From assembly GCA_030746935.1 (NCBI GenBank), contig JASLLV010000006.1, positions 1-36,043 on the forward strand: a DNA stretch of 36,043 nucleotides, in the 5' to 3' direction. The notes under the pieces were generated by a model that was not told the origin of the DNA, searched no databases, and saw nothing but the letters and a program-made list of their open reading frames with translations. Below are positions 9,191-35,929 of this stretch, one piece after another (the stretch's first letter is position 1; each line of letters opens with the position of its first letter). Position numbers and translations under genes: made by a program. This DNA is from Rhodospirillales bacterium (GTDB lineage: Bacteria; Pseudomonadota; Alphaproteobacteria; Rhodospirillales; JASLLV01).

Positions 9191-10951
9191 TCAGCGGGAT
9201 TTGGCCGCACGCGATTTCGGTCGCGGCTTCCTTTGCGCCCGAAGCGTCCGCGTCCGGTGCGCGTCCACGGCGCCCTCGGGCGTCATCACGACGGCGTAAT
9301 CGCGCTTGGCGGCGGCGCGCGAGACCACGCCATTGGCCACGTCGTCTGCGACGCGTTCCGGCGCCCGACCAAGGGGATCACCGAGCCCGCCGCCGCCCGG
9401 GATATCGAGAACCAGTCGGTCGCCCGCCGCGATCGCTTGGCGGCCCTTGCCGCGAAGGGTCGCGCCGGCGGTCGTCGAAACCCGGCCCGCACCACCTTTA
9501 TGGCCGCCGCGGCGGCCGCGGGCCGGGTGCGCGATACGGTCGAACATCGCCGACAGCACGAACGGCGCGCCGTCGGCGTGGCCGATCTCCATCACCTGGC
9601 CCGTGCCGCCCCGCATCTCGCCGGCGCCGCCGGAATCGCATACGTATTCCTTGCGCCAAATCACGATGGGCGCGACGGTCTCGTTGACCTCGGCCGGCGT
9701 GCTGCGCACCCCGGACGGAAACGCCGTCGCCGACATCCCGTCCTTTCCCGGGCGTGCGCCGGTGCCGCCGGTATGGAAAAGCGCCACGGTGAAAGGTCGC
9801 GAATCCTTGGCGCCCGCGTCGCCCGAAATCCCGTGCCCGCCCATCAGGATCGGAACCCAGAGGCACGACGCCCCTTCCGCCGGGACCGCACCCCCGAGCG
9901 CCTGATCGAGGCACCCCAAGACCACGTCGGGAAGCATCTGGCCGATCACGTGGCGGGCGGCGACCGCCGACGGGTGCGGCGCATTCAGGATCGTACCTTC
10001 GGGCGCCGTGACCCGCACCGGCGCCAACGAGCCCGCGTTGTTGGGGATCCGCGCGCCGACGACGCAGCGCACACCGAACGAGGCGTAGGCCTGGGTGTAG
10101 GTGATGGGTACGTTGATCCCGTAGCCCGAGACCCCGGACGTGCCGGCGAAGTCGATGTCGATATGATCGCCCGCCACCGTCATGGCGGCGACCAGATCGA
10201 CGTCGCTATCGTAGCCGTCGATGCGCATGCGGTTCTGGTACGTCCCGGGCGGCACCTTCCGGATCTCATCGATCATTGCGGCCCGCGATTGGGCGATGAT
10301 GGAATCCGCGAGGCGGTCCAGCGAATCGAGCTCGAACTCCGCCATCATCTCGACCAGGCGCTTGCAACCCATGTCGTTGCAGGCGGCCAGCGAGTACAAG
10401 TCCCCTTCCACCTGCACCGGCTCGCGCACGTTGGCGGCGACGATGTCCAGGAGCGTCCGGTTGATCACGCCACCCTCGGCGAGCGGCATGATCGGGACGT
10501 TGAGCCCTTCTTCGAACACCTGGCGACCGTCGGGGCCGAAGCCCACGCCGCCGATGTCGACGACGTGACAGGTGGCGGCCAACAGCGCCACGACGCGACC
10601 CTTGTGGAAGGCCGGCGTCACCACCGTGAAGTCGTTCAGGTGCCCGGTCCCGAGCCACGGGTCGTTGGTGAGGTACACGTCGCCTTCGTTCATGGTCGAG
10701 GGCGGAAACTTGGCGCGGAAGTGGTTGACCGACGCCGCCATGGCGTTGACGTGGCCAGGCGTTCCGGTCACCGCCTGGGCCAGCATCCGGCCGCCTAAGT
10801 CGAAGACCCCGGCCGACAGGTCGCCGCACTCGCGGACCGCGGTCGAGAACGCGGTCCGGACCAGGGTCTGGGCCTGCTCCTCGACCACCGCGATCAGGCG
10901 GTTCCACATAAGCTGAGTGTGGATCAGCTCTAAATCCGAGTTCCGTTTCAT
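9191..10951 (-). CDS. hyuB: Hydantoinase B / 5-oxoprolinase beta-type subunit
   Basis: A 586-residue protein with the HyuB signature EGDVYLTNDPWLGTGHLNDF (about residues 91-110), a His-rich follow-up (ATCHVVDIGGVG) and the C-terminal glycine-rich segment DRLVLDIPGGGGLGDPLGRA. HyuA and HyuB together hydrolyse cyclic amides such as hydantoins or 5-oxoproline with ATP; related acetone-carboxylase-like enzymes also exist. It starts at ATG 10951, only three bases after the HyuA stop codon, indicating translational coupling. The substrate class (hydantoin or 5-oxoproline) cannot be assigned from sequence. A basic C-terminal tail rich in Arg, Lys and Ala ends the protein. Confidence 0.92.
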   Translation of the reverse strand: MKRNSDLELIHTQLMWNRLIAVVEEQAQTLVRTAFSTAVRECGDLSAGVFDLGGRMLAQAVTGTPGHVNAMAASVNHFRAKFPPSTMNEGDVYLTNDPWLGTGHLNDFTVVTPAFHKGRVVALLAATCHVVDIGGVGFGPDGRQVFEEGLNVPIMPLAEGGVINRTLLDIVAANVREPVQVEGDLYSLAACNDMGCKRLVEMMAEFELDSLDRLADSIIAQSRAAMIDEIRKVPPGTYQNRMRIDGYDSDVDLVAAMTVAGDHIDIDFAGTSGVSGYGINVPITYTQAYASFGVRCVVGARIPNNAGSLAPVRVTAPEGTILNAPHPSAVAARHVIGQMLPDVVLGCLDQALGGAVPAEGASCLWVPILMGGHGISGDAGAKDSRPFTVALFHTGGTGARPGKDGMSATAFPSGVRSTPAEVNETVAPIVIWRKEYVCDSGGAGEMRGGTGQVMEIGHADGAPFVLSAMFDRIAHPARGRRGGHKGGAGRVSTTAGATLRGKGRQAIAAGDRLVLDIPGGGGLGDPLGRAPERVADDVANGVVSRAAAKRDYAVVMTPEGAVDAHRTRTLRAQRKPRPKSRAAKSR

Positions 10952-10954
10952 GGC

Positions 10955-13060
10955 TCAGCGGCCTCCTTGCGTCGCCATCTTCCGCGTCAGAACAATGTAG
11001 CCGAGCGCGTTGATCTGCGCATTGAAAGAGGCGGGCACCACGGTGGTCGTCTGGTCTTCGGCGATCAGCGCCGGGCCGCGAATTCGCGCACCGGGCTTCA
11101 AGTCCTCGCGCCAAAAGACCGGCGCGTCTGCGTAATCGGCGCGGCTCGCCTCGAACAAAGGGCGCACGCTCCGGGCTTCCGGGTTCTTGCGACGAGCCCG
11201 CGCCCGGCCCACCGGCGCTCGCTCGGGCACGATCGAGCGGATGGTCAACGTCCAGCTCAGCGCCGCGACGTCGAGGCCGGGAATGGTGCGCCCGCAAAGG
11301 GTCTCGTAGGTCTCGTCGAAGGCGCGGCGCAGCGTCGCCACGTCGTCGACGCGAAGTTTTCGCACCGGCAGCGCGACCTCGATCTCGTGGCCTTGGCCGA
11401 TATAGCGCATGTAGGCGGACCGCGATTCGTCCAACGCGCCGCGTGGCGCCGCCTGGCGGACCACGTGAAGCGCTTCGGCATGCATCTCGCGATGGAGGGC
11501 GTTGACCGGCGCGGCCGCGAATTCCGAAAGCCGCAAGTGGCGGCTGCGCACCACCTCGTAGGACACCGGGGCGCGCAGGAAACCGATCGCGGCACCGACG
11601 CCGGCGCCGGTGGGCACGACAATCGTGTCGATCCCGAGCTTGTCGGCGAGGCGCGGCGCATGCAGCGGCGCCGCACCCCCGTAAGCCACCAACGCCCGGC
11701 CCGCGGCCGAGCGGCCCCACTCGATGGCGTGTACCCGGGCCGCGTTGGCCATGTTTTCGTCCACCACCTCGCTGACGGCGAAGGCGGCAAGCGGCTCGGA
11801 AAGGTTCAGCGACGCCCCGATTGTGCCGGCGAGCGCCGCGCCCGCGCGTTCGGGCGCCAGCTTGACCGCGCCGCCGGCAAAGCGCGCCGTGTCCAGCCGC
11901 CCGAGCACCAGATCGGCGTCGGTCACCGTCGCGAGCTCGCCGCCGCGATCGTAACAAGCCGGCCCCGGCTCGGCGCCCGCGCTTTCGGGCCCCACGGCCA
12001 CGCGCCGAAGCGTGTCCACGTCGGCGATAGACCCGCCGCCGGCGCCGATCTCGACCATCTCGATCGCCGGGATGCGAAGCGGCAGGCCGCTTCCCTTTAA
12101 GAACCGGTAGACCCGGCCCACTTCGAAGGCGCGCGTGGTCAAGGGCTCGGCGCCGTCGATCAGGCAGACCTTGGCCGTGGTGCCGCCCATGTCGAACGAG
12201 AGGACGCGTGCCAGCCCGCATTCGGCGGCGATCTGGCCAGCCAGGATCGCGCCGCCGGCCGGTCCCGATTCGACGAGGCGAACGGGAAAGCGCATAGCGG
12301 TCTCGAGGGTCGCCAGCCCGCCCGACGACGTCATCAGCAGGAACGGCGCCTTGATTCCGATGGTGCGCAGTTTCACGTCCAGCGCTTTCAGATACCTCGC
12401 CATCAGGGGCTGGACGTAGGCGTTGGCGCAGGTGGTGGACTGACGCTCGTACTCGCGGATCTCGGGGCAGACGGCGGACGCAAGCGAGATGTTCAAATTG
12501 GGGTAAGCGGCGGCGATGATCTCGGCGATCCGGCGCTCGTGGCGGTCGTCCACGTAGGCGTGGATCAGGCCGATGGCGACGCTCTCGATCCCTTCCGCTT
12601 TGATGCCAGGAACGAGCGCCGCGACCGAATCCTCGTCGAGCGGAATCAGGACCCGGCCCTGGGCGTCGAGGCGCTCGCGCACCGGCCAGCGGAGCCTTCG
12701 CGGCACCAGCGGGGCGGGGCGGTCGATCAGGATATCGTACTGCTCGAAGCGGTTCTCGTGCGCCATCTCCAAGGAATCGCGGAACCCCTCGGTCACGATC
12801 AGCGCGGTTTTTGCGCCTTTGCGCTCGATCAGCGCGTTGGTCGCCAGCGTCGTCCCGTGGACGACAAGCTCGATCCGTTCGGGGGCGAGACTGGCGCTGG
12901 CGAGCACCTTGTCGATCCCCTCAAGGACGCCGCGCTCGGGTGCCTGCGCCGTGGTCAGCACCTTGGCGGTGGTCAGGCGCTCGCCGACCGCCGCCACCAC
13001 GTCGGTAAAGGTGCCGCCGATGTCGACGGCGAGGCGGACGGATTCCTTTTTTTCTGCCAA
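10955..13060 (-). CDS. hyuA: Hydantoinase A / 5-oxoprolinase alpha-type subunit (ATPase)
   Basis: A 701-residue protein with the N-terminal ASKHA-like ATPase motif VDIGGTFTDVVA (about residues 13-24), VVHGTTLATNALIERKGAK and MGGTTAKVCLI in the middle, and GAGGGSIADVD after it. This is the complete HyuA domain order (Hydant_A_N then Hydantoinase_A). It provides ATP-dependent activation of the cyclic amide; HyuB follows three bases downstream. The only in-frame start at the expected place is TTG at 13060, preceded by GAGGGC. A run of seven A bases sits within the first five codons, a possible slippage site. The middle gene of a minus-strand series beginning with N-formylglutamate amidohydrolase. 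Confidence 0.92.
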   Translation of the reverse strand: MAEKKESVRLAVDIGGTFTDVVAAVGERLTTAKVLTTAQAPERGVLEGIDKVLASASLAPERIELVVHGTTLATNALIERKGAKTALIVTEGFRDSLEMAHENRFEQYDILIDRPAPLVPRRLRWPVRERLDAQGRVLIPLDEDSVAALVPGIKAEGIESVAIGLIHAYVDDRHERRIAEIIAAAYPNLNISLASAVCPEIREYERQSTTCANAYVQPLMARYLKALDVKLRTIGIKAPFLLMTSSGGLATLETAMRFPVRLVESGPAGGAILAGQIAAECGLARVLSFDMGGTTAKVCLIDGAEPLTTRAFEVGRVYRFLKGSGLPLRIPAIEMVEIGAGGGSIADVDTLRRVAVGPESAGAEPGPACYDRGGELATVTDADLVLGRLDTARFAGGAVKLAPERAGAALAGTIGASLNLSEPLAAFAVSEVVDENMANAARVHAIEWGRSAAGRALVAYGGAAPLHAPRLADKLGIDTIVVPTGAGVGAAIGFLRAPVSYEVVRSRHLRLSEFAAAPVNALHREMHAEALHVVRQAAPRGALDESRSAYMRYIGQGHEIEVALPVRKLRVDDVATLRRAFDETYETLCGRTIPGLDVAALSWTLTIRSIVPERAPVGRARARRKNPEARSVRPLFEASRADYADAPVFWREDLKPGARIRGPALIAEDQTTTVVPASFNAQINALGYIVLTRKMATQGGR

Positions 13061-24146: not shown

Positions 24147-24545
24147 ATGCTGCAACGACGCAACCCATCTTCGATCGCTGCGCCCTTGGGGCGTTATACC
24201 CACGGCGTCGAAGCGCCCGTGGGCGCGCGCTTCCTGTTCGTTTCCGGCCAGGTGGGGATCGGCCCCGACGGAAGCCTGGCCGAAGGCCCGGCGGGCCAGA
24301 TCGAACGTGCTTTCCTGAACGTCAAGGCGGTCCTCGATGACAATGGCTACACCCAGGACGACTTGATCAAGACGGTCACGTTCATGACCCGGCGCGAGGA
24401 CATCGCCGTCCTGCGCGAGATGCGCGAGCGCGTTTTCCCGGCCGCCGGGGCGGCGGGAGACCCGGCCGCGACCCTGATCTTCGTCGCCGGCCTCGCCGAT
24501 TCCGAGTGGGTGGTCGAGGTCGAGGCCGTCGCCGCCAAGGCCTGA
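24147..24545 (+). CDS. RidA-family (YjgF/UK114) protein, copy 1
   Basis: A 132-residue protein with the RidA fold signatures LFVSGQVGIGPDGSL near the N terminus, QIERAFLNVKAVLDDNGYTQDDLIKTVTFM in the middle, and AATLIFVAGLADSEWVVEVEAVA at the C terminus. The usual catalytic arginine (as in P-x-R near the C terminus of RidA) is not seen at the expected place (AAGDPAATLIFVAGL), so it may be a RidA-subfamily member without imine deaminase activity. AAGGAGG five bases before ATG 24147 decides the start. Trimeric cytosolic protein expected. It follows the aminotransferase gene by 102 bases. Confidence 0.9.
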   Translation: MLQRRNPSSIAAPLGRYTHGVEAPVGARFLFVSGQVGIGPDGSLAEGPAGQIERAFLNVKAVLDDNGYTQDDLIKTVTFMTRREDIAVLREMRERVFPAAGAAGDPAATLIFVAGLADSEWVVEVEAVAAKA

Positions 24546-24606
24546 GCGAGACGAAGACGCCCGGGGCCGCCGCCGGCAGGGCGTGAACGCCATTTGCGGC
24601 GGCACA

Positions 24607-24634
24607 TTGATCGCCGAGTAGCGCGTGGTAGTCT
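24607..24634 (+). promoter_or_regulatory. Candidate promoter for the ChaC-like gene
   Basis: TTGATC (24607-24612), 16-base spacer, TAGTCT (24629-24634). The transcript start would fall about 10-12 bases before GTG 24653, leaving just the GAGGAG ribosome site, or about 50 bases before the alternative GTG 24692. Read by eye. Confidence 0.35.
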
Positions 24635-24652
24635 CAGCGCCCGCGAGGAGCG

Positions 24653-25357
24653 GTGGCGCTCGCTCGCCGGCTTGAGAAGGGCAACGCATTGGTGCTGACT
24701 CGAGAGAACATCAAAAGCGGTTTCCTCCAGAAGATGCTTGCCGACGGAGACCGCTCGCTTCGCCTCCTTAGCGACGAGGAGCGCGAGGCGTCTCTCACCG
24801 CGATGCTGGTGGACGTGGCGCCGAACGAAGACGTCTGGGTCTTCGCGTACGGCTCTTTGATCTGGAACCCGGCATTCCACTTCGCCGAGAAGCGAATCGC
24901 GACCGTCCACGGCTGGCACCGGCGCTTTTGCTTGTGGGTGCAGTTGGGGCGCGGATCGCCCGGGAACCCCGGCCTGATGCTGGGCCTTCAACGCGGGGGG
25001 GCGTGCCGGGGGCTGGTCTATCGCATCGCCCGGCCCCATACGAGGACCGAGCTCGAAATCGTCTGGCGCCGCGAGATGGTGGCTGGCGCCTACCGGCCGC
25101 GCTGGGTCGCGGCCCGCACGGCCGAGGGCCCGGTCCGCGCCATCGCGTTTGCCATCAACGACGGCCACGACCGGTACGCGGGCGGGCTGTCGGACGAAAA
25201 GGTGGCGGCGTCCATCGCCACCGCCGAGGGTCGGATCGGTCCTTGTTGCGACTATCTGTACAACACCGTCGCGCATCTGGAGGAGCTCGGTATCCACGAC
25301 CGCCGGCTCCACTGGACCCGCAAACGGGTGGACGCGCTGCGCGCGGCGGCGCGCTGA
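24653..25357 (+). CDS. ChaC-like gamma-glutamylcyclotransferase
   Basis: A 234-residue protein with the defining motif VFAYGSLIWNP (about residues 62-72), followed by HGWHRRFCLW, LGLQRGGACRGLVYRI and the region ELEIVWRREM holding the probable catalytic glutamate. ChaC-type enzymes cleave glutathione or gamma-glutamyl peptides to 5-oxoproline. This fits functionally with the 5-oxoprolinase-like hyuAB in the window, although the genes are over 11 kb apart. The first start is GTG 24653 close to GAGGAG; GTG 24692 is an alternative about 13 codons later. It is flanked by two RidA-family genes. Confidence 0.92.
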   Translation: MALARRLEKGNALVLTRENIKSGFLQKMLADGDRSLRLLSDEEREASLTAMLVDVAPNEDVWVFAYGSLIWNPAFHFAEKRIATVHGWHRRFCLWVQLGRGSPGNPGLMLGLQRGGACRGLVYRIARPHTRTELEIVWRREMVAGAYRPRWVAARTAEGPVRAIAFAINDGHDRYAGGLSDEKVAASIATAEGRIGPCCDYLYNTVAHLEELGIHDRRLHWTRKRVDALRAAAR

Positions 25358-25408
25358 TCGCGTCGCGAACCTTTATTGACCGCCGAACTGGAACTTGAGG
25401 AGGCTCCG

Positions 25409-25753
25409 ATGGAGATCGTACGTCAGGAAATTAAACCGACCATGAGCCACGTGGTCGAGCACAACGGCGTGGTCTATCTCGCCGGTATGATGGCCGACGA
25501 CCACAGCGCGTCGACCACCGTCCAGACCGAACAGGTGTTGGCAAAAATCGACGCGCTGCTCGCCATGGCGGGAACCGACAAGTCGCGATTGCTGACCGCG
25601 ATGGTCTTCGTTTCCGACATCGGTATCCGGCCCGAATTGAACAAGGTGTGGCAAGCCTGGATCGCCCCCAACAACCCACCGACGCGCGCCTGCGTCGGTA
25701 TCCAGCTCGAAGGTCCGGCGAAGGTCGAGATCATCGTCACCGCCGCCAAATAG
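25409..25753 (+). CDS. RidA-family (YjgF/UK114) protein, copy 2
   Basis: A 114-residue protein with VEHNGVVYLAGMMADD, TEQVLAKIDALLAMAGTDKSRLLTAMVFVSDI and the C-terminal PPTRACVGIQLEGPAKVEIIVTA. The Arg in PTRAC matches the catalytic arginine of imine deaminases, so this copy, unlike copy 1, looks active in hydrolysing 2-aminoacrylate-type enamines. ATG 25409 preceded by TTGAGGAGG is the clear start; the TTG at 25376 only opens the frame. It lies 51 bases after the ChaC-like gene and may share its transcript. Confidence 0.93.
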   Translation: MEIVRQEIKPTMSHVVEHNGVVYLAGMMADDHSASTTVQTEQVLAKIDALLAMAGTDKSRLLTAMVFVSDIGIRPELNKVWQAWIAPNNPPTRACVGIQLEGPAKVEIIVTAAK

Positions 25754-25776
25754 CAGGCGTTTTCGCCCGGCCCGCC

Positions 25777-25877: not shown

Positions 25878-26003
25878 ATGAAGGTCAAGAACTCGCTCAA
25901 GACCGCCAAGCTCCGCGAGCGCGGCTGCCGCGTCGTCCGCCGTGGCCGGCGTGTGTACGTCATCAACAAGCGCAACCGCCGCTTCAAGGCCCGCCAGGGC
26001 TGA
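25878..26003 (+). CDS. rpmJ: 50S ribosomal protein L36
   Basis: A 41-residue, very basic protein that begins [20 protein letters not shown] and ends [16 protein letters not shown]. This is the long alphaproteobacterial form of L36 with its characteristic FKARQG end. Only one cysteine remains, so the zinc ribbon (C-x2-C...C-x4-H) of the short form is absent: a zinc-independent version. It binds 23S rRNA in the large subunit. It has its own promoter and sits alone between catabolic and secreted-protein genes, as is common for rpmJ in alphaproteobacteria. A start without a strong Shine-Dalgarno (GGTCGGGCACGC precedes it) is not unusual. Confidence 0.95.
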
Positions 26004-26178: not shown

Positions 26179-26997
26179 ATGCGCTCGATCATCGTCGTAC
26201 CGATTTGCGCCCTTGGGCTCGGCCTTTTCGCCGGAGCGGCGGATGCCGGCGTACCCCAAGCACTTCTCGTTGCCGCCCAGGGTGAGATCACGCTGCGGTG
26301 CGAGGCCGGCGAATGCGCCGCCGACGTAACCACCGTCTGCCTCCGGCGCGACCGCGACATGCCGCTTCCCGGGACCCCGTATGCGCCGATCGAGCTTGCC
26401 GGCGCGCCTGGCGCCTTGACGCTCGTCGGGCGAACCGCCGACGGACGCGATGTGCCGCTTACGAGCCTGGTCCCGGTTGCGTTAAGCGCCGCCCGCGGAC
26501 ACTTGGCGGTGAAGCTCAGCGTGCCCGCGGACGTTCGCGACCGTTTTGGGATCGAAACCCTTGCGGCCCACGTCACGGGCACTGTGGCCCTGGCCCCGGT
26601 GGTTTCCGGAAACGTCGCGGATGCAGGTTCGTTGGCAGAGCTTGCCGAGGCCCTGGCGGCGTTGCGTCCCGTCGCCGAGACCGTGCTGAGGGCCCGCAGT
26701 GAAGTGCTCGCCGCCGCCTGGCTGGTTCACGACGTTTACAACGCCCTTCCCCGCGCGCGCCAATCGAGCCCGGCCGAGAACGGCCACGCCTGGGTCGCGG
26801 CAATCGACGCATGGCGGGACCGGGCGCCGAGCCCCGTCGCCGAAGAAGCACTCGCCCGCGGCCGTGACGTGTTCGATTTTTGCACGGCGCCCTGGCGGAC
26901 GAACTTTCCGCTGCGAAGCTGTTTGGGGCATATGCACAACGAGCTGATGCAGCGGGTCAACGACGACTACTGGCGGAAGACCCACACCGGTTCGTGA
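26179..26997 (+). CDS. Secreted protein of unknown family, tandem copy 1 (intact)
   Basis: A 272-residue protein with a signal peptide (PICALGLGLFAGAADA, cut before GVPQ). It has a striking Cys block CEAGECAADVTTVCLRRDRD at mature positions near 20-40, then MPLPGTPY. A beta-rich middle contains GHLAVKLSV and ETLAAHVTGTVALAP. A helical second half (LHDVYNALPRA-like stretch, with AWLVHDVYNALPRAR) leads to a C-terminal RSCLGHMHNELMQRVNDDYW ending in HTGS. The family is not recognised. Strong GGAGGAG lies before ATG 26179. It is followed by a related gene at 27136. Location should be periplasmic or extracellular. Confidence 0.85.
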   Translation: MRSIIVVPICALGLGLFAGAADAGVPQALLVAAQGEITLRCEAGECAADVTTVCLRRDRDMPLPGTPYAPIELAGAPGALTLVGRTADGRDVPLTSLVPVALSAARGHLAVKLSVPADVRDRFGIETLAAHVTGTVALAPVVSGNVADAGSLAELAEALAALRPVAETVLRARSEVLAAAWLVHDVYNALPRARQSSPAENGHAWVAAIDAWRDRAPSPVAEEALARGRDVFDFCTAPWRTNFPLRSCLGHMHNELMQRVNDDYWRKTHTGS

Positions 26998-27056
26998 CGA
27001 AAGCGCTGGCCCTTGTCCGGCGCTGATTTTCCTTTCCGGGCTGCCGCCGATTGCGC

Positions 27057-27062
27057 TACACT
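27057..27062 (+). promoter_or_regulatory. Candidate -10 element of second tandem gene
   Basis: TACACT (five of six identical to TATACT-like, four to TATAAT) in the 138-base gap, in the context GCGCTACACTTTTGCC, about 74 bases before the ATG at 27136. No good -35 element is present at 16-18 bases, so this is weak. Confidence 0.25.
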
Positions 27063-27135
27063 TTTGCCAACCCCGAGTCGCGCCTGCGCCCTCGCGGTTA
27101 TCGGTGCGCGACCGACGATTCAAGGAGTGAATCCA

Positions 27136-27974
27136 ATGCGCAAGATCAGTTTGGCCGTGGCCGCAATCGGACTGGCGGGATTCGCGGGCACCGCGGCGGC
27201 GGCCCCGCAGAGCCTGCTCGTGGCCTCGAAGGGGACGTGCCCCTTTTGTGCGAAGGCGGCGAATGCGCCGCCGACATCACCACGATCTGCCTGCAGCGCG
27301 ACCGCGACATGCCCCTTAAGGGCACGGTCTACGACATCATGACCGAAGCGCCCGACGACCAGCCCTTGCGCATCGTCGGCCTGCTCGCCGACGGTGGCGA
27401 GGTCGAGCTGGCCTCGGCGGCGGCACCGGTCTCGATCGTGGCCGAACGCGGTCATCTGGCCGTCAAGCTGAGCGTTTCCGCCAGCGTCGTCGATCGTTTC
27501 CAGCTTTCGCAACTGATCGCGCGCGTGAGCGGACCGGTGGTGCTCGCGCCTCGCCCTGAGCCTGGCGACGACAATCCTCAGACGGAAACCGACCTCGCCG
27601 AGTCCCAGGGTACGTTGAGGTCGCTGGCCGAAGAGACGATCGCCGCGAACCCGGCGAAGATGGCCGTGGCCGCCGTCCTTCACGAGGCGGTCAACGCGTT
27701 GCCCAGGCTTCGCGCCACCACGCGTGCGGACCACCAGGCGGCTTGGCGGCGCGCGTCGGCGAGCGCCTCGGGGGCCGAGGCCGAAAAGGCAATCGAACAG
27801 GCGCGCAACGCGTTTCGCGCGTGCTCGAGCGTCGCGCTTGGATCGGGCCGCAAGCCCCATGAGGAGCCGACCTGGGAGAAGTTCACGTTCCGCGATTGCC
27901 TCGGGACCATGCACAACGGCGCCGTCAATCCGGTGAACGAGACCTACTGGAAGAACCTCTATCACGGCAGTTGA
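27136..27974 (+). pseudogene. Secreted protein of unknown family, tandem copy 2 (frameshifted)
   Basis: A paralogue of the gene at 26179. ATG 27136 (AAGGAG upstream) starts a signal peptide (LAVAAIGLAGFAGTAAAA) and PQSLLVASKG. The frame then breaks at the G run 27231-27234. Continuing in the -1 frame restores GDVPLLCEGGECAADITTIC, LQRDRDMPLKGT, RGHLAVKLSV, LHEAVNALPR and the C-terminal FRDCLGTMHNG, ending YHGS. One missing G (four instead of five) explains it. The intact product would be 279 residues. As written, the first frame ends after about 69 codons. Downstream sequence is well conserved with copy 1, so the break is recent, an error, or bypassed by slippage. Confidence 0.85.
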
Positions 27975-28062: not shown

Positions 28063-29550
28063 ATGCGCATGCCGAAACCCGACGCCAGCGTCGTCGGCCG
28101 CCGCGACGCGATCGTCGGCCAGCTTCGCGAAATCGTGGCCACCGAGGGCGTGATCGTCGATGAGGACGAGATGCGCGCGTACGAGTGCGACGGCCTCACC
28201 GCTTACCGCCAGCTTCCCTTCATCGTCGTCCTGCCCGAAACGACCGAGCAGGTCTCGCGAATCCTGAAGCTGTGCCACGCGGAAGGCGTGAAGGTGGTGC
28301 CCCGCGGTGCCGGGACCTCGCTTTCCGGCGGCGCGCTGCCGCTGGCGGACGCGATCACTCTCGGGCTCGCAAAGTTCAACCGCATCCTCGATGTGGATTT
28401 GGACAATCGCTGCGTCGTCGCCCAGCCCGGCGTGACGAACCTCGGCATCACCGACGCCGTCAAATCTCAAGGCTTCTATTACGCCCCCGATCCCTCGAGC
28501 CAGATCGCCTGCACCATCGGCGGCAACGTCGCCGAGAACTCGGGCGGGGTCCACTGTCTGAAATACGGCCTCACCACCAACAACCTGCTCGGTCTCGAGA
28601 TGGTGCTGATTACGGGCGAGGTGATCCGGATCGGCGGCAAGCACTTGGACAGCGAGGGCTACGACCTTCTCGGCCTGGTCACCGGCTCCGAAGGCCTCCT
28701 CGGTGTCGTGACCGAGGTCACGGTCCGCATCCTTCCCCGACCGGAGATGGCGCGCGCCCTTCTCGCCGGTTTCCCGTCGAGCGAGGCCGCAGGCGCCTGC
28801 GTCGCCCAAGTGATCGGGGCGGGCATCATTCCGGCCGGCATGGAGATGATGGATCGGCCCGCCATTCACGCGGCCGAGGATTTCGTCCATGCGGGCTATC
28901 CGCTCGACGCCGACGCCTTGTTGATCGTCGAGCTCGACGGGCCGGAGGCCGAGGTTGCCCATCTCGTCGACCGGGTGACCGGGATCGCGCGGGAATCGGG
29001 TGCCGGTGAACTGCGCGTGAGCGCCGATGATGAGGAACGCGAGCGGTTCTGGGCCGGGCGCAAGGCGGCGTTTCCGGCGGTCGGTAGGATTTCGCCCGAC
29101 TACTACTGCATGGACGGAACCATTCCCCGGCGCCGGCTCGCGGAAGTGCTTCGGCGCATGGCCGAGATGTCGAGGCGCCACGGCCTTCGCGTCGCCAACG
29201 TCTTTCACGCCGGCGACGGGAACCTGCACCCGCTGATCCTGTATGACGCCAACCGGCCGGGCGAGCTGGAAAGCGCCGAGACGTTCGGCGCAGAAATCCT
29301 CAAGTTGTGCGTCGAGGTCGGCGGAGTCTTGACTGGCGAGCACGGCGTCGGCGTCGAGAAGCGCGATTTGATGGGCGTCATGTTCACCGAGGACGACCTG
29401 AACCACCAGCAACGCGTGAAGTGCGCATTCGACGCCGAAAGCCTTCTCAATCCCGGCAAGGTCTATCCGATCCTGCGCCGCTGTGCCGAGTTGGGCCGGC
29501 TCCACGTGCGGGCAGGTCAGGTCCGCTTCCCCGACATCCCCCGGTTCTGA
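28063..29550 (+). CDS. glcD: Glycolate oxidase subunit GlcD (FAD-linked)
   Basis: A 495-residue PCMH-type flavoprotein. The FAD-binding segment includes VVPRGAGTSLSGGALP and CTIGGNVAENSGGVHCLKYG, then GSEGLLGVVTEVTVRI. The C-terminal domain has the metal/substrate motifs NVFHAGDGNLHPLI and LTGEHGVGVEKRDL, and NPGKVYP at the end. It oxidises glycolate or another 2-hydroxyacid to the 2-oxoacid, passing electrons through GlcE/GlcF to the quinone pool. The order glcD-glcE-glcF with short gaps (19 and 12 bases) is the classic operon, and it distinguishes this gene from the single-subunit paralogue at 34535. Confidence 0.95.
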   Translation: MRMPKPDASVVGRRDAIVGQLREIVATEGVIVDEDEMRAYECDGLTAYRQLPFIVVLPETTEQVSRILKLCHAEGVKVVPRGAGTSLSGGALPLADAITLGLAKFNRILDVDLDNRCVVAQPGVTNLGITDAVKSQGFYYAPDPSSQIACTIGGNVAENSGGVHCLKYGLTTNNLLGLEMVLITGEVIRIGGKHLDSEGYDLLGLVTGSEGLLGVVTEVTVRILPRPEMARALLAGFPSSEAAGACVAQVIGAGIIPAGMEMMDRPAIHAAEDFVHAGYPLDADALLIVELDGPEAEVAHLVDRVTGIARESGAGELRVSADDEERERFWAGRKAAFPAVGRISPDYYCMDGTIPRRRLAEVLRRMAEMSRRHGLRVANVFHAGDGNLHPLILYDANRPGELESAETFGAEILKLCVEVGGVLTGEHGVGVEKRDLMGVMFTEDDLNHQQRVKCAFDAESLLNPGKVYPILRRCAELGRLHVRAGQVRFPDIPRF

Positions 29551-29569
29551 ACGCGGCTTCGAAGCGCCC

Positions 29570-30787
29570 ATGACCGATGTGCTTGCGCCTCGCGACGCCG
29601 ACGACGTGCTCGACGCGGTTGCAGAATCGCTCGCGACGGGGCGGCCGGTCGACGTGGTGGCAGCGGGCAGCAAGCGGAACTTCGGCCGCCCGTGCGAGAC
29701 GGCGTGCGAACTCGACGTAAGCGCGCTTTCGGGTATCGATCTCTACGAGCCCGACGAGCTGGTGGTCGGCATGGGCGCGGCGACCCCGCTCGTGGCGCTC
29801 GAGGCGGCGCTTGAGGCCGAGCGGCAGATGCTCTCATTCGAACCCCCGGACCTCGGTCCCGTGCTCGGCGCGCCGGCGGGCCAAAGCACGGTCGGTGGCG
29901 TGCTCGCATGCAACCTCTCGGGCCCACGGCGCATCATGGCGGGCGCCGCGCGTGACCACTTCCTCGGCTTTAACGCCGTCAGCGGTCGCGGAGAAGCGTT
30001 CAAGTCCGGCGGCCGCGTCGTCAAGAACGTTACGGGCTTCGATCTCTCGAAGTTGATTGCGGGCTCGTTCGGGACGCTGGCTGTGCTGACCCACGTGGTG
30101 CTTAGGGTTCTTCCGTCGCCAGAGGACGAGCGCACGGTGCTGATCGCCGGCCTCGCCGATGCCCAGGCCGTGAGCGCCATGTCGGCGGCCATGAACGGCC
30201 CATACGATGTCTCAGGCGCGGCCCATCTTCCGGCACCCGTCGCGTCAGCTTCGGCGAACGAGGCGGTCTCGGGCCTGGGCGCCTCGACGACGGCAATTCG
30301 GATCGAAGGGCCCGCACCATCGGTCGAGGCGCGGACGCGCGCCGTCAGCGCCCTCGTATCCGAATTCGGCCCGACGCACGTGCTGGATCGAGCGCAATCG
30401 GGCTCGCTGTGGCGCGAGGTTCGCGACGTCTCGTACTTCGCCGCCGACGGGCGCCAAGTCTGGCGGATTTCGGTCGCGCCGGCGGCAGGCGCGGGCGTCG
30501 GCGGGCAAATCGCGGCCGCAACCAACGGAACGGTTTTCTACGATTGGGCCGGGGGGCTGGTGTGGCTCGCGATTCCGGCGCTGGACGACGCCGGCCACGA
30601 GACGATTCGGGGCGCGATCCGGGATATCGGCGGCCACGCGACGCTCGTTCGCGCAGACCCCGAAGTGCGCGCCGCGGTGTCCGTCTTTCAACCCCAGCCC
30701 GCGCCGCTGGCGGCGCTGGCGGCGCGCATCAAGGACAGCTTCGACCCCCGCCACGTCCTCAACCCCGGGCGCATGGCACAGGTTTGA
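29570..30787 (+). CDS. glcE: Glycolate oxidase subunit GlcE (FAD-binding)
   Basis: A 405-residue protein with the half-PCMH FAD domain typical of GlcE: VDVVAAGSKRNFGRP, APAGQSTVGGVLACNLSGPRR and GRVVKNVTGFDLSKLIAGSFG followed by LAVLTHVVLRVLPSP. The C terminus FDPRHVLNPGRM is the usual family end. It forms the second flavin-containing subunit of glycolate oxidase. ATG 29570 lies 19 bases after the glcD stop; the frame upstream to 29483 overlaps glcD. Confidence 0.95.
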   Translation: MTDVLAPRDADDVLDAVAESLATGRPVDVVAAGSKRNFGRPCETACELDVSALSGIDLYEPDELVVGMGAATPLVALEAALEAERQMLSFEPPDLGPVLGAPAGQSTVGGVLACNLSGPRRIMAGAARDHFLGFNAVSGRGEAFKSGGRVVKNVTGFDLSKLIAGSFGTLAVLTHVVLRVLPSPEDERTVLIAGLADAQAVSAMSAAMNGPYDVSGAAHLPAPVASASANEAVSGLGASTTAIRIEGPAPSVEARTRAVSALVSEFGPTHVLDRAQSGSLWREVRDVSYFAADGRQVWRISVAPAAGAGVGGQIAAATNGTVFYDWAGGLVWLAIPALDDAGHETIRGAIRDIGGHATLVRADPEVRAAVSVFQPQPAPLAALAARIKDSFDPRHVLNPGRMAQV

Positions 30788-30799
30788 GGGCGCGCGGTC

Positions 30800-32137
30800 G
30801 TGCAAACCCGTTTCACCGCCGCCCAGCTCGCCGACGCCGACATCCGCGATGCCGACGCCATCCTTCGCGCCTGCGTGCATTGCGGGTTTTGCCTCGCCAC
30901 CTGTCCCACCTACGTTCAGCTCGGCGACGAGTTGGACAGCCCGCGCGGGCGCATCTATTTGATCAAGGACATGCTCGAGGGCGACCGTACGCCGAGCGCC
31001 AAGGTGGCGGGGCATATCGATCGCTGCCTTTCGTGCCTTTCGTGCATGACCACGTGCCCGTCGGGCGTCGACTATATGCACCTGGTCGACATTGCCCGCG
31101 CCCGCATCGAGACGCGCCTCGTCCGCCCGGTCGGCGAACGATTCTTGCGAGGCATGCTGGCGGCCGTGCTTCCCAGGCCCGCGGTGTTCCGCCTCGCGCT
31201 CATCGCCGGCGCGCTCGCGCGCCCCTTCCGGCGGCTTTTCCCGGCCCGCTGGCGCGCCGCCCTGGCGCTGGTGCCGCCGCGCATCGTCCCGCTCTCGTCC
31301 GGTGACCGGCCCCAGACCTTCCCCGCCTCAGGCGCGCGTCGCAAGCGGGTGGCGATCCTGCCCGGCTGTGCGCAGCAGATTCTGCGCCCAGCCATCAACG
31401 AGGCGGCCACGCGCGTGCTTACGCGCATGGGCTGCGAGGTCGTCGTGCCCGAGGGATTGGCCTGCTGCGGGGCGCTGGTCCACCACATGGGGCGCAGCGA
31501 AGACGCGCGCGTCTCGGCGCGCGCCGTGGTCCGCGCGTTCCACGACGCGCTTGACGACGGCGGGCTCGACGCCGTGGTCGTCACTGCGTCCGGTTGCGGC
31601 ACCATGGTCAAGGATTACGCGCACCTGCTGCGGGGCGACGCTGAGTTTGGCGCGAGGGCCGCAAAGATTGCGGCGCTCGCTCGGGACGTCTCGGAAGTGA
31701 TCGACGATCTTGGGCTCGCGGGTGCGGCGGCGGGGACGGTAGCGCCGTCGCTACCGGTCGTCGCCTACCACGCGGCGTGCTCGCTCGCCCACGGCCAGCG
31801 GATCCGCGAGACGCCGGCGCGGCTGCTGAGCAGCGCCGGATTCGTCGTCCGCGAGCCCGTCGACGCCCATCTGTGTTGTGGCTCGGCCGGGACCTACAAC
31901 ATGCTGCGGTCCGAATTGGCCGAGCCGTTGCGTGCGCGCAAGGCGGCGGCGCTCGCAGAACTGGGCGCCGATGTGATCGCGACGGGCAACATCGGCTGCC
32001 TCACCCAGCTTGCGGGTGCTGCGCCGGTCCCGGTGGTGCACACGGTCGAGCTTCTCGACTGGGCGACGGGCGGCCCGCCACCCAGCGAGCTTGCCACCCA
32101 TAAGCCCCGGGCGCGCCCGAGGCTTGGCAACGACTAG
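30800..32137 (+). CDS. glcF: Glycolate oxidase iron-sulfur subunit GlcF
   Basis: A 445-residue protein with two 4Fe-4S ferredoxin motifs (CVHCGFCLATCP about residues 25-36; CLSCLSCMTTCP about 76-87). It has two C-terminal CCG domains, with CCGALVHHMG and CCGSAGTYN. It carries electrons from GlcD/GlcE to the membrane quinone pool. The start codon is GTG at 30800, 12 bases after the glcE stop. The length is within the usual range for GlcF. Confidence 0.95.
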   Translation: MQTRFTAAQLADADIRDADAILRACVHCGFCLATCPTYVQLGDELDSPRGRIYLIKDMLEGDRTPSAKVAGHIDRCLSCLSCMTTCPSGVDYMHLVDIARARIETRLVRPVGERFLRGMLAAVLPRPAVFRLALIAGALARPFRRLFPARWRAALALVPPRIVPLSSGDRPQTFPASGARRKRVAILPGCAQQILRPAINEAATRVLTRMGCEVVVPEGLACCGALVHHMGRSEDARVSARAVVRAFHDALDDGGLDAVVVTASGCGTMVKDYAHLLRGDAEFGARAAKIAALARDVSEVIDDLGLAGAAAGTVAPSLPVVAYHAACSLAHGQRIRETPARLLSSAGFVVREPVDAHLCCGSAGTYNMLRSELAEPLRARKAAALAELGADVIATGNIGCLTQLAGAAPVPVVHTVELLDWATGGPPPSELATHKPRARPRLGND

Positions 32138-33532: not shown

Positions 33533-34465
33533 ATGGCGAGAGGAACGCACGAGACCATTGCGGACGCACGTAACGCCGACGTTCTGATCTACGTCAACGG
33601 CGCACTCGTGCCGCGCGACGAGGCCAAGGTCTCGGTCTTCGATTCCGGATTCGTGCTAGGCGACGGCGTCTGGGAGGGCGTGCGCCTGCACAACCGAAAG
33701 ATCGCCTTTCTCGATCAACACCTCGGCCGACTCTTCGAAGGCGCCCGAGCCATCGCCATGGACATTGGAATGACGCCGGACGAGCTGACCGAGGCGCTTT
33801 ACCGAACCGTCGAAGCCAACGCGATGGAATCGAACGTCCACATCCGGCTCATGGTGACCCGCGGCGTCAAGAGCACGCCGCATCAGGACCCGCGACTGAC
33901 CATCGGCACCGCCACAGTGGTGATCATCGCCGAGCACAAGCTGAAGGCACCCGAGACCGACACCGTGGGCGTTCGCTTGTTCACCTCCAGCGTGCGCCGC
34001 GCCCACCCGGACACCCAAGACCCGAAACTGAATTCGCACAGCAAGCTCAACTGCATCACCGCCCTGGTGCAGGCGTTGAATGCCGGCGCCGACGAGGCGC
34101 TGATGCTCGATCCCGAGGGCTTCGTCAGCACCTGCAACTCGACCAACTTCTTCATCGTCCGCAAGGGCGAGGTTTGGACGTCGACGGGCAAGTACTGCAT
34201 GAACGGGATCACCCGCGGCCACGTCATCGAGGTTGCCCGTGGCGACGGAAGTCCGGTTTTCGAGAAGGACTTCTCGCTCACCCAAGTGTACGGCGCCGAC
34301 GAAGCCTTCGTGACCGGCACTATCGGCGGCCTCACACCGGTGGCTGAGGTCGACGGCCGAGCCATCACGGGAAAGCTGCCGGGGCCCGTGACGGCGCGAC
34401 TCAAGGCCCTCCTTGGGGAACTCATGGACAAGGAGTGTCCGGCGCCGAGCCCAGCCCGGCGATGA
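33533..34465 (+). CDS. Class IV PLP aminotransferase (branched-chain/D-amino acid type)
   Basis: A 310-residue fold-type IV enzyme. The N-terminal YVNGALVPRDEAKVSVFDSG begins the IlvE/D-alanine transaminase domain; the Schiff-base lysine is in LNSHSKLNCI. The class IV signature DEALMLDPEGFVSTCNSTNFF and the phosphate-binding MNGITRGHVIE follow. The motif set fits both branched-chain L-amino acid and D-amino acid transaminases; the substrate is not decided here. AAAGGCGAGGACCCC precedes ATG 33533. With the SDR (24 bases upstream) and the D-lactate-dehydrogenase-like gene downstream it may form a small operon that turns an amino acid into a 2-oxoacid and 2-hydroxyacid (inference). Confidence 0.93.
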   Translation: MARGTHETIADARNADVLIYVNGALVPRDEAKVSVFDSGFVLGDGVWEGVRLHNRKIAFLDQHLGRLFEGARAIAMDIGMTPDELTEALYRTVEANAMESNVHIRLMVTRGVKSTPHQDPRLTIGTATVVIIAEHKLKAPETDTVGVRLFTSSVRRAHPDTQDPKLNSHSKLNCITALVQALNAGADEALMLDPEGFVSTCNSTNFFIVRKGEVWTSTGKYCMNGITRGHVIEVARGDGSPVFEKDFSLTQVYGADEAFVTGTIGGLTPVAEVDGRAITGKLPGPVTARLKALLGELMDKECPAPSPARR

Positions 34466-34534: not shown

Positions 34535-35929
34535 ATGGCAGTGAGCGGCCAAGCCGCGGTGCTGGAGGACGGCCTGCTCGACGAGCTGCGCGCCATCTTC
34601 GGCGATCGGTTGTCGCTGGCCGATGCGGTTCGCGAACAGCACGGCCGCGACGAATCCTATCACGCCGCCCATGCGCCCGACGCAGTGGTTTTCCCCGCCG
34701 ACAACGAAGAAGTGCAGGCGGTGGCCCGCGCCTGCGCGCGTCATCACGTTCCCGTCATCCCGTTCGGAATCGGCACTTCGCTCGAGGGGCAGGTGGCGGC
34801 AATCTGCGGCGGGGTGTGTGTCGATTTATCACGCATGGATGCGGTCCTCGAGGTTCACGCGCAAGACATGGACGCCACGGTCCAGGCCGGCGCCACGGGC
34901 TCGAAGTTGAACAGTTATCTGCGCGATACCGGGCTTTTCTTCGCCGTCGATCCCGGCGCCGACGCCACCCTCGGGGGGATGGCGGCGACCCGGGCTTCGG
35001 GCACAAATGCGGTCCGCTATGGGACCATGCGCGAGACCGTGCTGGGACTCGGCGTCGTACTCGCCGACGGGCGCTTTATCCGAACCAGCCGGCGGGCGCG
35101 CAAGTCTGCCGCCGGATACGATCTGACGCGCCTATTCGTAGGTTCCGAGGGGACGCTCGGCGTGATCACCGAGGTGACGGTTCGCCTGCACGGCATACCC
35201 GAGGCAACCTCGGCCGCCGTCGCCGCATTCGCGGACTTGGATTCGGCAGTAAGCACGGTGATCGAAACGATCCAAAGCGGCGTCCCGGTGGCCAGGATCG
35301 AGCTTCTCGACGACGTCAGCATGGACGCCATCAACCGGTTCTCGGGTTTGAGTTACGAATTGACGCCGACACTCTTTTTCGAGTTCCACGGGTCGACGCG
35401 AGGGGTCGTCGAGCAAGCCCAGACGGTTGAAGCGATCGCCGGCGAACACGCATGCAAAGGCTTCCATTGGGCGACCGACGCGGATGAGCGCGCGCACCTG
35501 TGGCAAGCGCGCCACGACGCCTATTACGCGTGTCTCGCCCTGCGCCCGGGATCCAAGGGCCTTGCGACCGACGTCTGCGTGCCGGTCTCGCGGCTCGCCG
35601 AGTGCATCGTCGAGACTCGCCGCGACATCGATGAATCGTTCCTGATCGCGCCGATTGTCGGACACGTCGGCGACGGCAACTTCCACGTGGTCATGCTGCT
35701 CGATCCCGAGAACGCCGACGAGGTGGCCGAGGCCAAGCGCCTCAATGAACGGATGGTGATGCGGGCGCTCGCCATGGACGGGACCTGCACCGGCGAACAC
35801 GGCGTCGGCACCGGAAAGATGGAGTTTCTGATGGCCGAGCACGGCGAGGCGGTGAGCGTCATGCGGGCGCTCAAGCGGGCATTGGACCCCGACAACATCA
35901 TGAACCCCGGGAAGATCCTGATCGTCTAG
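34535..35929 (+). CDS. FAD-binding 2-hydroxyacid dehydrogenase (D-lactate dehydrogenase, cytochrome type)
   Basis: A 464-residue single-subunit flavoprotein of the same fold as GlcD. The PCMH FAD site reads VIPFGIGTSLEGQ, DPGADATLGGMAATRASGTNAVRYG and GSEGTLGVITEVTVRL. The C-terminal half has GHVGDGNFHVVMLL and CTGEHGVGTGKMEFL. No GlcE/GlcF partners follow it, so it resembles cytochrome-linked D-lactate dehydrogenase (Dld type) rather than glycolate oxidase. AGGAGAG lies six bases before ATG 34535. It follows the class IV aminotransferase by 69 bases. Confidence 0.93.
   Translation: MAVSGQAAVLEDGLLDELRAIFGDRLSLADAVREQHGRDESYHAAHAPDAVVFPADNEEVQAVARACARHHVPVIPFGIGTSLEGQVAAICGGVCVDLSRMDAVLEVHAQDMDATVQAGATGSKLNSYLRDTGLFFAVDPGADATLGGMAATRASGTNAVRYGTMRETVLGLGVVLADGRFIRTSRRARKSAAGYDLTRLFVGSEGTLGVITEVTVRLHGIPEATSAAVAAFADLDSAVSTVIETIQSGVPVARIELLDDVSMDAINRFSGLSYELTPTLFFEFHGSTRGVVEQAQTVEAIAGEHACKGFHWATDADERAHLWQARHDAYYACLALRPGSKGLATDVCVPVSRLAECIVETRRDIDESFLIAPIVGHVGDGNFHVVMLLDPENADEVAEAKRLNERMVMRALAMDGTCTGEHGVGTGKMEFLMAEHGEAVSVMRALKRALDPDNIMNPGKILIV

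Follow-up and report, generated by a model that had tools for sequence, protein, structure and literature searches.

Two adjacent genes of a marine alphaproteobacterium point to a new family of exported proteins with conserved cysteines

Two adjacent genes in a 36,043-nucleotide stretch of a Rhodospirillales genome (the whole analyzed stretch is called the window) are real paralogues, and they very probably represent a new family of exported proteins. The host of the window's genes is a marine alphaproteobacterium known from a draft genome (203 contigs, 83% complete). As a whole explanation, we tentatively favor a soluble, periplasmic, Sec-exported and vertically inherited family, whose members would be non-enzymatic binding or adaptor proteins that use a patch around cysteine C54 (gene 1 numbering). 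The features of the pair are listed in Table 1.

Table 1. Features of the two genes and the evidence for each
Feature	Position	Strand	Basis
Gene 1, intact exported protein, 272 aa	26179..26997	+	single open frame; 82% identical sister-genome orthologue, dN/dS 0.32
Gene 1 signal peptide, predicted cleavage ADA|GVPQ	26179..26247	+	sequence; family conservation of A at -3/-1, Q27
Gene 1 Cys block, C41-x4-C46-x7-C54...P62	26299..26364	+	conservation, up to 73 members
Gene 1 predicted N-terminal beta-sandwich domain, residues 24-142	26248..26604	+	AlphaFold2, mean pLDDT 76
Gene 1 predicted C-terminal five-helix bundle, residues 152-272	26632..26994	+	AlphaFold2 models
Gene 2 5' part read from its ATG, 68 aa, covering the signal peptide and first strand before the frame is lost	27136..27342	+	frame reading; DNA alignment
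Gene 2 remainder in other frame, 243 aa, Cys block and C terminus	27243..27974	+	dN/dS 0.34 vs sister copy
Gene 2 site of the one-base difference, G run of four here and of five in the sister genome	27232..27243	+	DNA alignment

The alignment of the gene 1 and gene 2 products, which spanned their whole shared length, scored 427, compared with a mean of 37.6 (sd 6.1) and a maximum of 65 in 500 shuffles. The Cys block was 80% identical, the surroundings of the GHLAVKLSV segment 52-56% and other stretches 24-41%, in agreement with the initial annotation, which had described common blocks in otherwise diverged products. That annotation also gave the two exported proteins as 272 and 279 residues long. 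The first length stands, and the N terminus of gene 1 reads MRSIIVVPICALGLGLFAGAADA|GVPQ, a signal peptide followed by the mature start; the second is a bridged reading, because a one-base frameshift breaks gene 2.

Gene 2 begins at the ATG at 27136 with a good ribosome-binding site and its frame stops at 27342, and the stretch CEGGECAADITTICLQRDRDMPL...CLGTMHN...YW sits in the other frame (27243-27974). DNA alignment with the intact copy in the sister genome (G001, Rhodospirillales MAG ETNP2_MAG_87; locus L028, on the same contig as L024) showed that one base is absent near 27232. Both genes are intact in the sister genome, and the neighbors there are the same (RidA, ChaC, RidA, the pair, GlcD). 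The dN/dS 3' of the break was 0.34, as compared with 0.32 for gene 1 and 0.13-0.18 for two neighbors of another paralogue. Since the downstream codons are still under selection, the break either arose recently or is an artifact of assembly. The broken frame could also mean that gene 2 is a real pseudogene here and that the pair is being lost, which we hold to be a distinct possibility but not a probable one: the dN/dS beyond the break is like that of intact gene 1, and a break in a G run of a fragmented draft is explained equally well by a very recent change or by faulty assembly. Another broken copy was seen in genome G038, in which the family member at L039 2711-3526 is interrupted by TGA and has no open N-terminal part.

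Conservation was assessed over up to 73 members, with a family alignment of 67 rows. The family scaffold consists of Q27, C41-x4-C46-x7-C54, P62, Y68, G89, C235 and R-x-C248. Conservation was complete for Q27 (70/70), C41 (71/71), C54, P62, C235 and C248 (72/72 each) and nearly so for C46 (71/72), Y68 and G89 (72/73 each), followed by W265 (68/72) and R59 (67/72). The spacing was equally rigid, with C41-x4-C46 found in 70/71 members and C46-x7-C54 in 71/71. Exactly five cysteines from C41 on were counted in 69 of 71 members, the sole exceptions being one member with six and a truncated one with three. The near-invariant Cys block of the initial annotation was thus borne out in the wider homologues as far as C41, C46, C54 and their spacing are concerned, but its ECAAD and RDRDMPL parts proved specific to close paralogues; the family-wide core of that long block is C-x4-C-x7-C-L-Q-x2-R-x2-P. 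The family-wide forms of GHLAVKLSV and VNALPR are R-G-[HFY]-x-A-V and N-x-L-P, respectively. At the signal-peptide end, alanine was present at -3 in 56/71 and at -1 in 62/71 members, and a near-invariant mature start, A-P-Q-x-L, follows the signal-peptide-like N terminus. A signal peptide with a mature A/G-x-P-Q start is present in gene 1 and in the gene 2 fragment, and C-x4-C-x7-C near the N terminus together with two C-terminal cysteines is found in both, though for gene 2 this requires combining the two frames.

The initial annotation had placed the pair in an unrecognized family, and the profile searches and structure prediction that it proposed recovered no characterized family or fold. 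No match over the curated cut-off was obtained in Pfam or NCBIfam when up to 67 members were scanned as a profile or one by one; scattered one-member matches with E values of 0.002-0.05 were discarded, as they did not recur among relatives. The search of PDB sequences returned no significant relative and chance matches only. These included designed ankyrin-repeat proteins, to which the N domain has a local 'ARGHLAVKL' likeness; such matches were rejected, given that they cover one local stretch, that the family-wide profile has no such match and that the model is beta rather than alpha-alpha repeats. Scans of three proteins each against PHROGs and PADLOC gave nothing meaningful, and a literature search found no description of the family.

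AlphaFold2 models were built from a shallow input of four sequences. The model of gene 1 (pLDDT 76, pTM 0.76) and that of the gene 2 copy that is intact in the sister genome (L024; pLDDT 80, pTM 0.79) both place a beta-sandwich before a bundle of five helices. In these models, C41 and C46 lie directly across a two-residue hairpin turn (strands 35-42/45-54 in gene 1 and 11-18/21-30 in the L024 paralogue), C235 is at the end of helix 4, and C248 is near the start of helix 5. Foldseek searches against PDB (twice) and BFVD (once) gave no match at E ≤ 1e-3. Immunoglobulin-like and CRP-like beta folds resemble the N-terminal domain in being beta-sandwiches or barrels of similar size, but they differ in that their TM-scores were low, none reached E ≤ 1e-3, and the helical domain of the family was unmatched.

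The window's genome carries five copies of the family and the sister species four. Profile searches, which reached up to phylum level and gave lower bounds because few candidates per genome were scored, found the family in at least 54 of 317 genomes of the order, at least 41 of 385 genomes of the class (a few being weak partial matches) and at least 2 of 399 genomes sampled across the phylum, both from that class (Alphaproteobacteria). Outside Alphaproteobacteria, that 399-genome sample yielded no relative. Judged by the family labels of matched genomes, the carriers fall into about 30 alphaproteobacterial groups at family level. Two members searched against 72,556 plasmid records gave no match, a single-protein scan of viral contigs, able to detect close relatives only, was negative, and a genome-contig scan matched the sister genome only.

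In a tree built by a quick method, four orthologue pairs common to the two sister species were each well supported; therefore, the four shared copies predate the split of these species. The tandem pairs of genus g27, genus g36 and G386 sit elsewhere in the tree, and tandem duplication has thus occurred several times. In 16 loci from both sides of the tree, a trmFO-like (GidA-family) gene in divergent orientation is found 1-7 kb away from the family gene, and in about a dozen of them uvrA stands on the other side of the family gene. The occurrence of this setting in both parts of the tree suggests that the locus is ancestral and chromosomal, and that it was passed on vertically and lost at times. 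The neighborhood survey that had been proposed for the homologues yielded a repeated setting but no functional theme: a tally of the neighbors' Pfam domains showed nothing recurrent of that kind and pointed to no partner. One paralogue in the window's genome (L025 3262-6983; G000 contig C165) lies antisense between two genes of a peptide transporter operon, one for an ABC ATPase and the other for a family 5 solute-binding protein, a setting also seen in the sister species. A link to peptide transport was considered and rejected, since the adjacent peptide-binding protein recurs only with the sister species' orthologue.

Several other genes of the window were noted. The gene for ribosomal protein L36 (rpmJ) is located just upstream of the pair (about 25880-26002), and frame-shifted readings of rpmJ sequence precede the family gene in L028 and L031, which suggests that synteny is conserved here across two families. 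A ChaC-like gamma-glutamylcyclotransferase gene lies between two RidA-family genes (24147-25754). The product of ChaC is 5-oxoproline, and 5-oxoprolinase-type Hydantoinase A/B genes occur in the same window (9191-13060). A glycolate-oxidase-like GlcD-GlcE-GlcF cluster, with GlcE assigned by position only, occupies 28063-32137; a second GlcD-like gene is found at 34535-35929, and a class IV aminotransferase gene (33533-34465) lies between the two.

The arrangement of the cysteines leads to a possible mechanism. Judging from the secondary structure of the models, C41 and C46 would form one disulfide across the tight beta-hairpin, and C235 and C248 a second one from helix 4 to helix 5. These two pairs would leave one invariant cysteine over, C54. 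The hairpin register would place it near the mature N terminus with Q27, and in the sequence it is not far from R59, P62 and Y68; these residues may form a functional patch at that end of the beta-sandwich. C54 might take part in an intermolecular disulfide, either in a homodimer or with a partner. We consider binding or adaptor activity through this patch, possibly via such a disulfide, the likeliest mechanism, though with low confidence. C54 could also be buried, or paired with C41 or C46 instead, and the invariant cysteines may mark the fold rather than a functional site. In a more far-reaching reading, which we consider rather unlikely, the protein is an old component of the alphaproteobacterial envelope, its two domains form a new fold, and a conserved cysteine is free or links subunits; it would serve as a redox-linked adaptor or sensor in the periplasm and would have been duplicated repeatedly for different partners.

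The invariance of C54 and the odd number of cysteines would also suit an exported enzyme with C54 as nucleophile or a thiol-redox enzyme. We regard this as unlikely, as there is no CxxC motif, H253 is lost in 10/72 members, and no fold match to any enzyme was found. A non-enzymatic protein is preferred because, cysteines aside, Q27 and Y68 are the only polar residues kept in ≥95% of members (H253, 62/72; D/N254, 64/72). Metal or heme binding with C41, C46 and C54 as ligands would account for three invariant cysteines with close and rigid spacing, but it is very unlikely: no CxxCH motif is present, and in both models the cysteines are strung along one long hairpin, whose register, deduced from secondary structure, puts C54, eight residues from C46, too far away to share a metal. 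A lysozyme inhibitor of the LprI/DUF1311 type, in which a divergent LprI-type helical hairpin formed by the C-terminal C-x12-R-x-C-L-x3-H-D-x6-L-N-x2-Y-W would block a muramidase, is highly improbable: a likeness by eye to what we take to be the LprI motif (C..MN.C....Y..aD..LN..Y), in exported, alpha-helical proteins with a Cys pair, and a PF07007 match at E 0.066 for 1 of 16 C-terminal segments stand against an hhalign probability of 0.2% (E 0.28) with true LprI sequences from related genomes, no PF07007 match at E ≤ 0.05 among 67 members scanned at full length, none above threshold in the searched family-carrying genomes, no PDB match, the absence of the second LprI half (W..fR...C...C...R...L) and the extra beta-sandwich domain of the family.

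The soluble periplasmic family favored here is of a common sort, exported and cysteine-stapled, and by itself it answers no open question. It occurs across these alphaproteobacterial groups, often in multiple copies, and has no Pfam or NCBIfam entry. A profile built from the family alignment would annotate such genes, and the odd invariant cysteine offers one direct experimental handle on the family.
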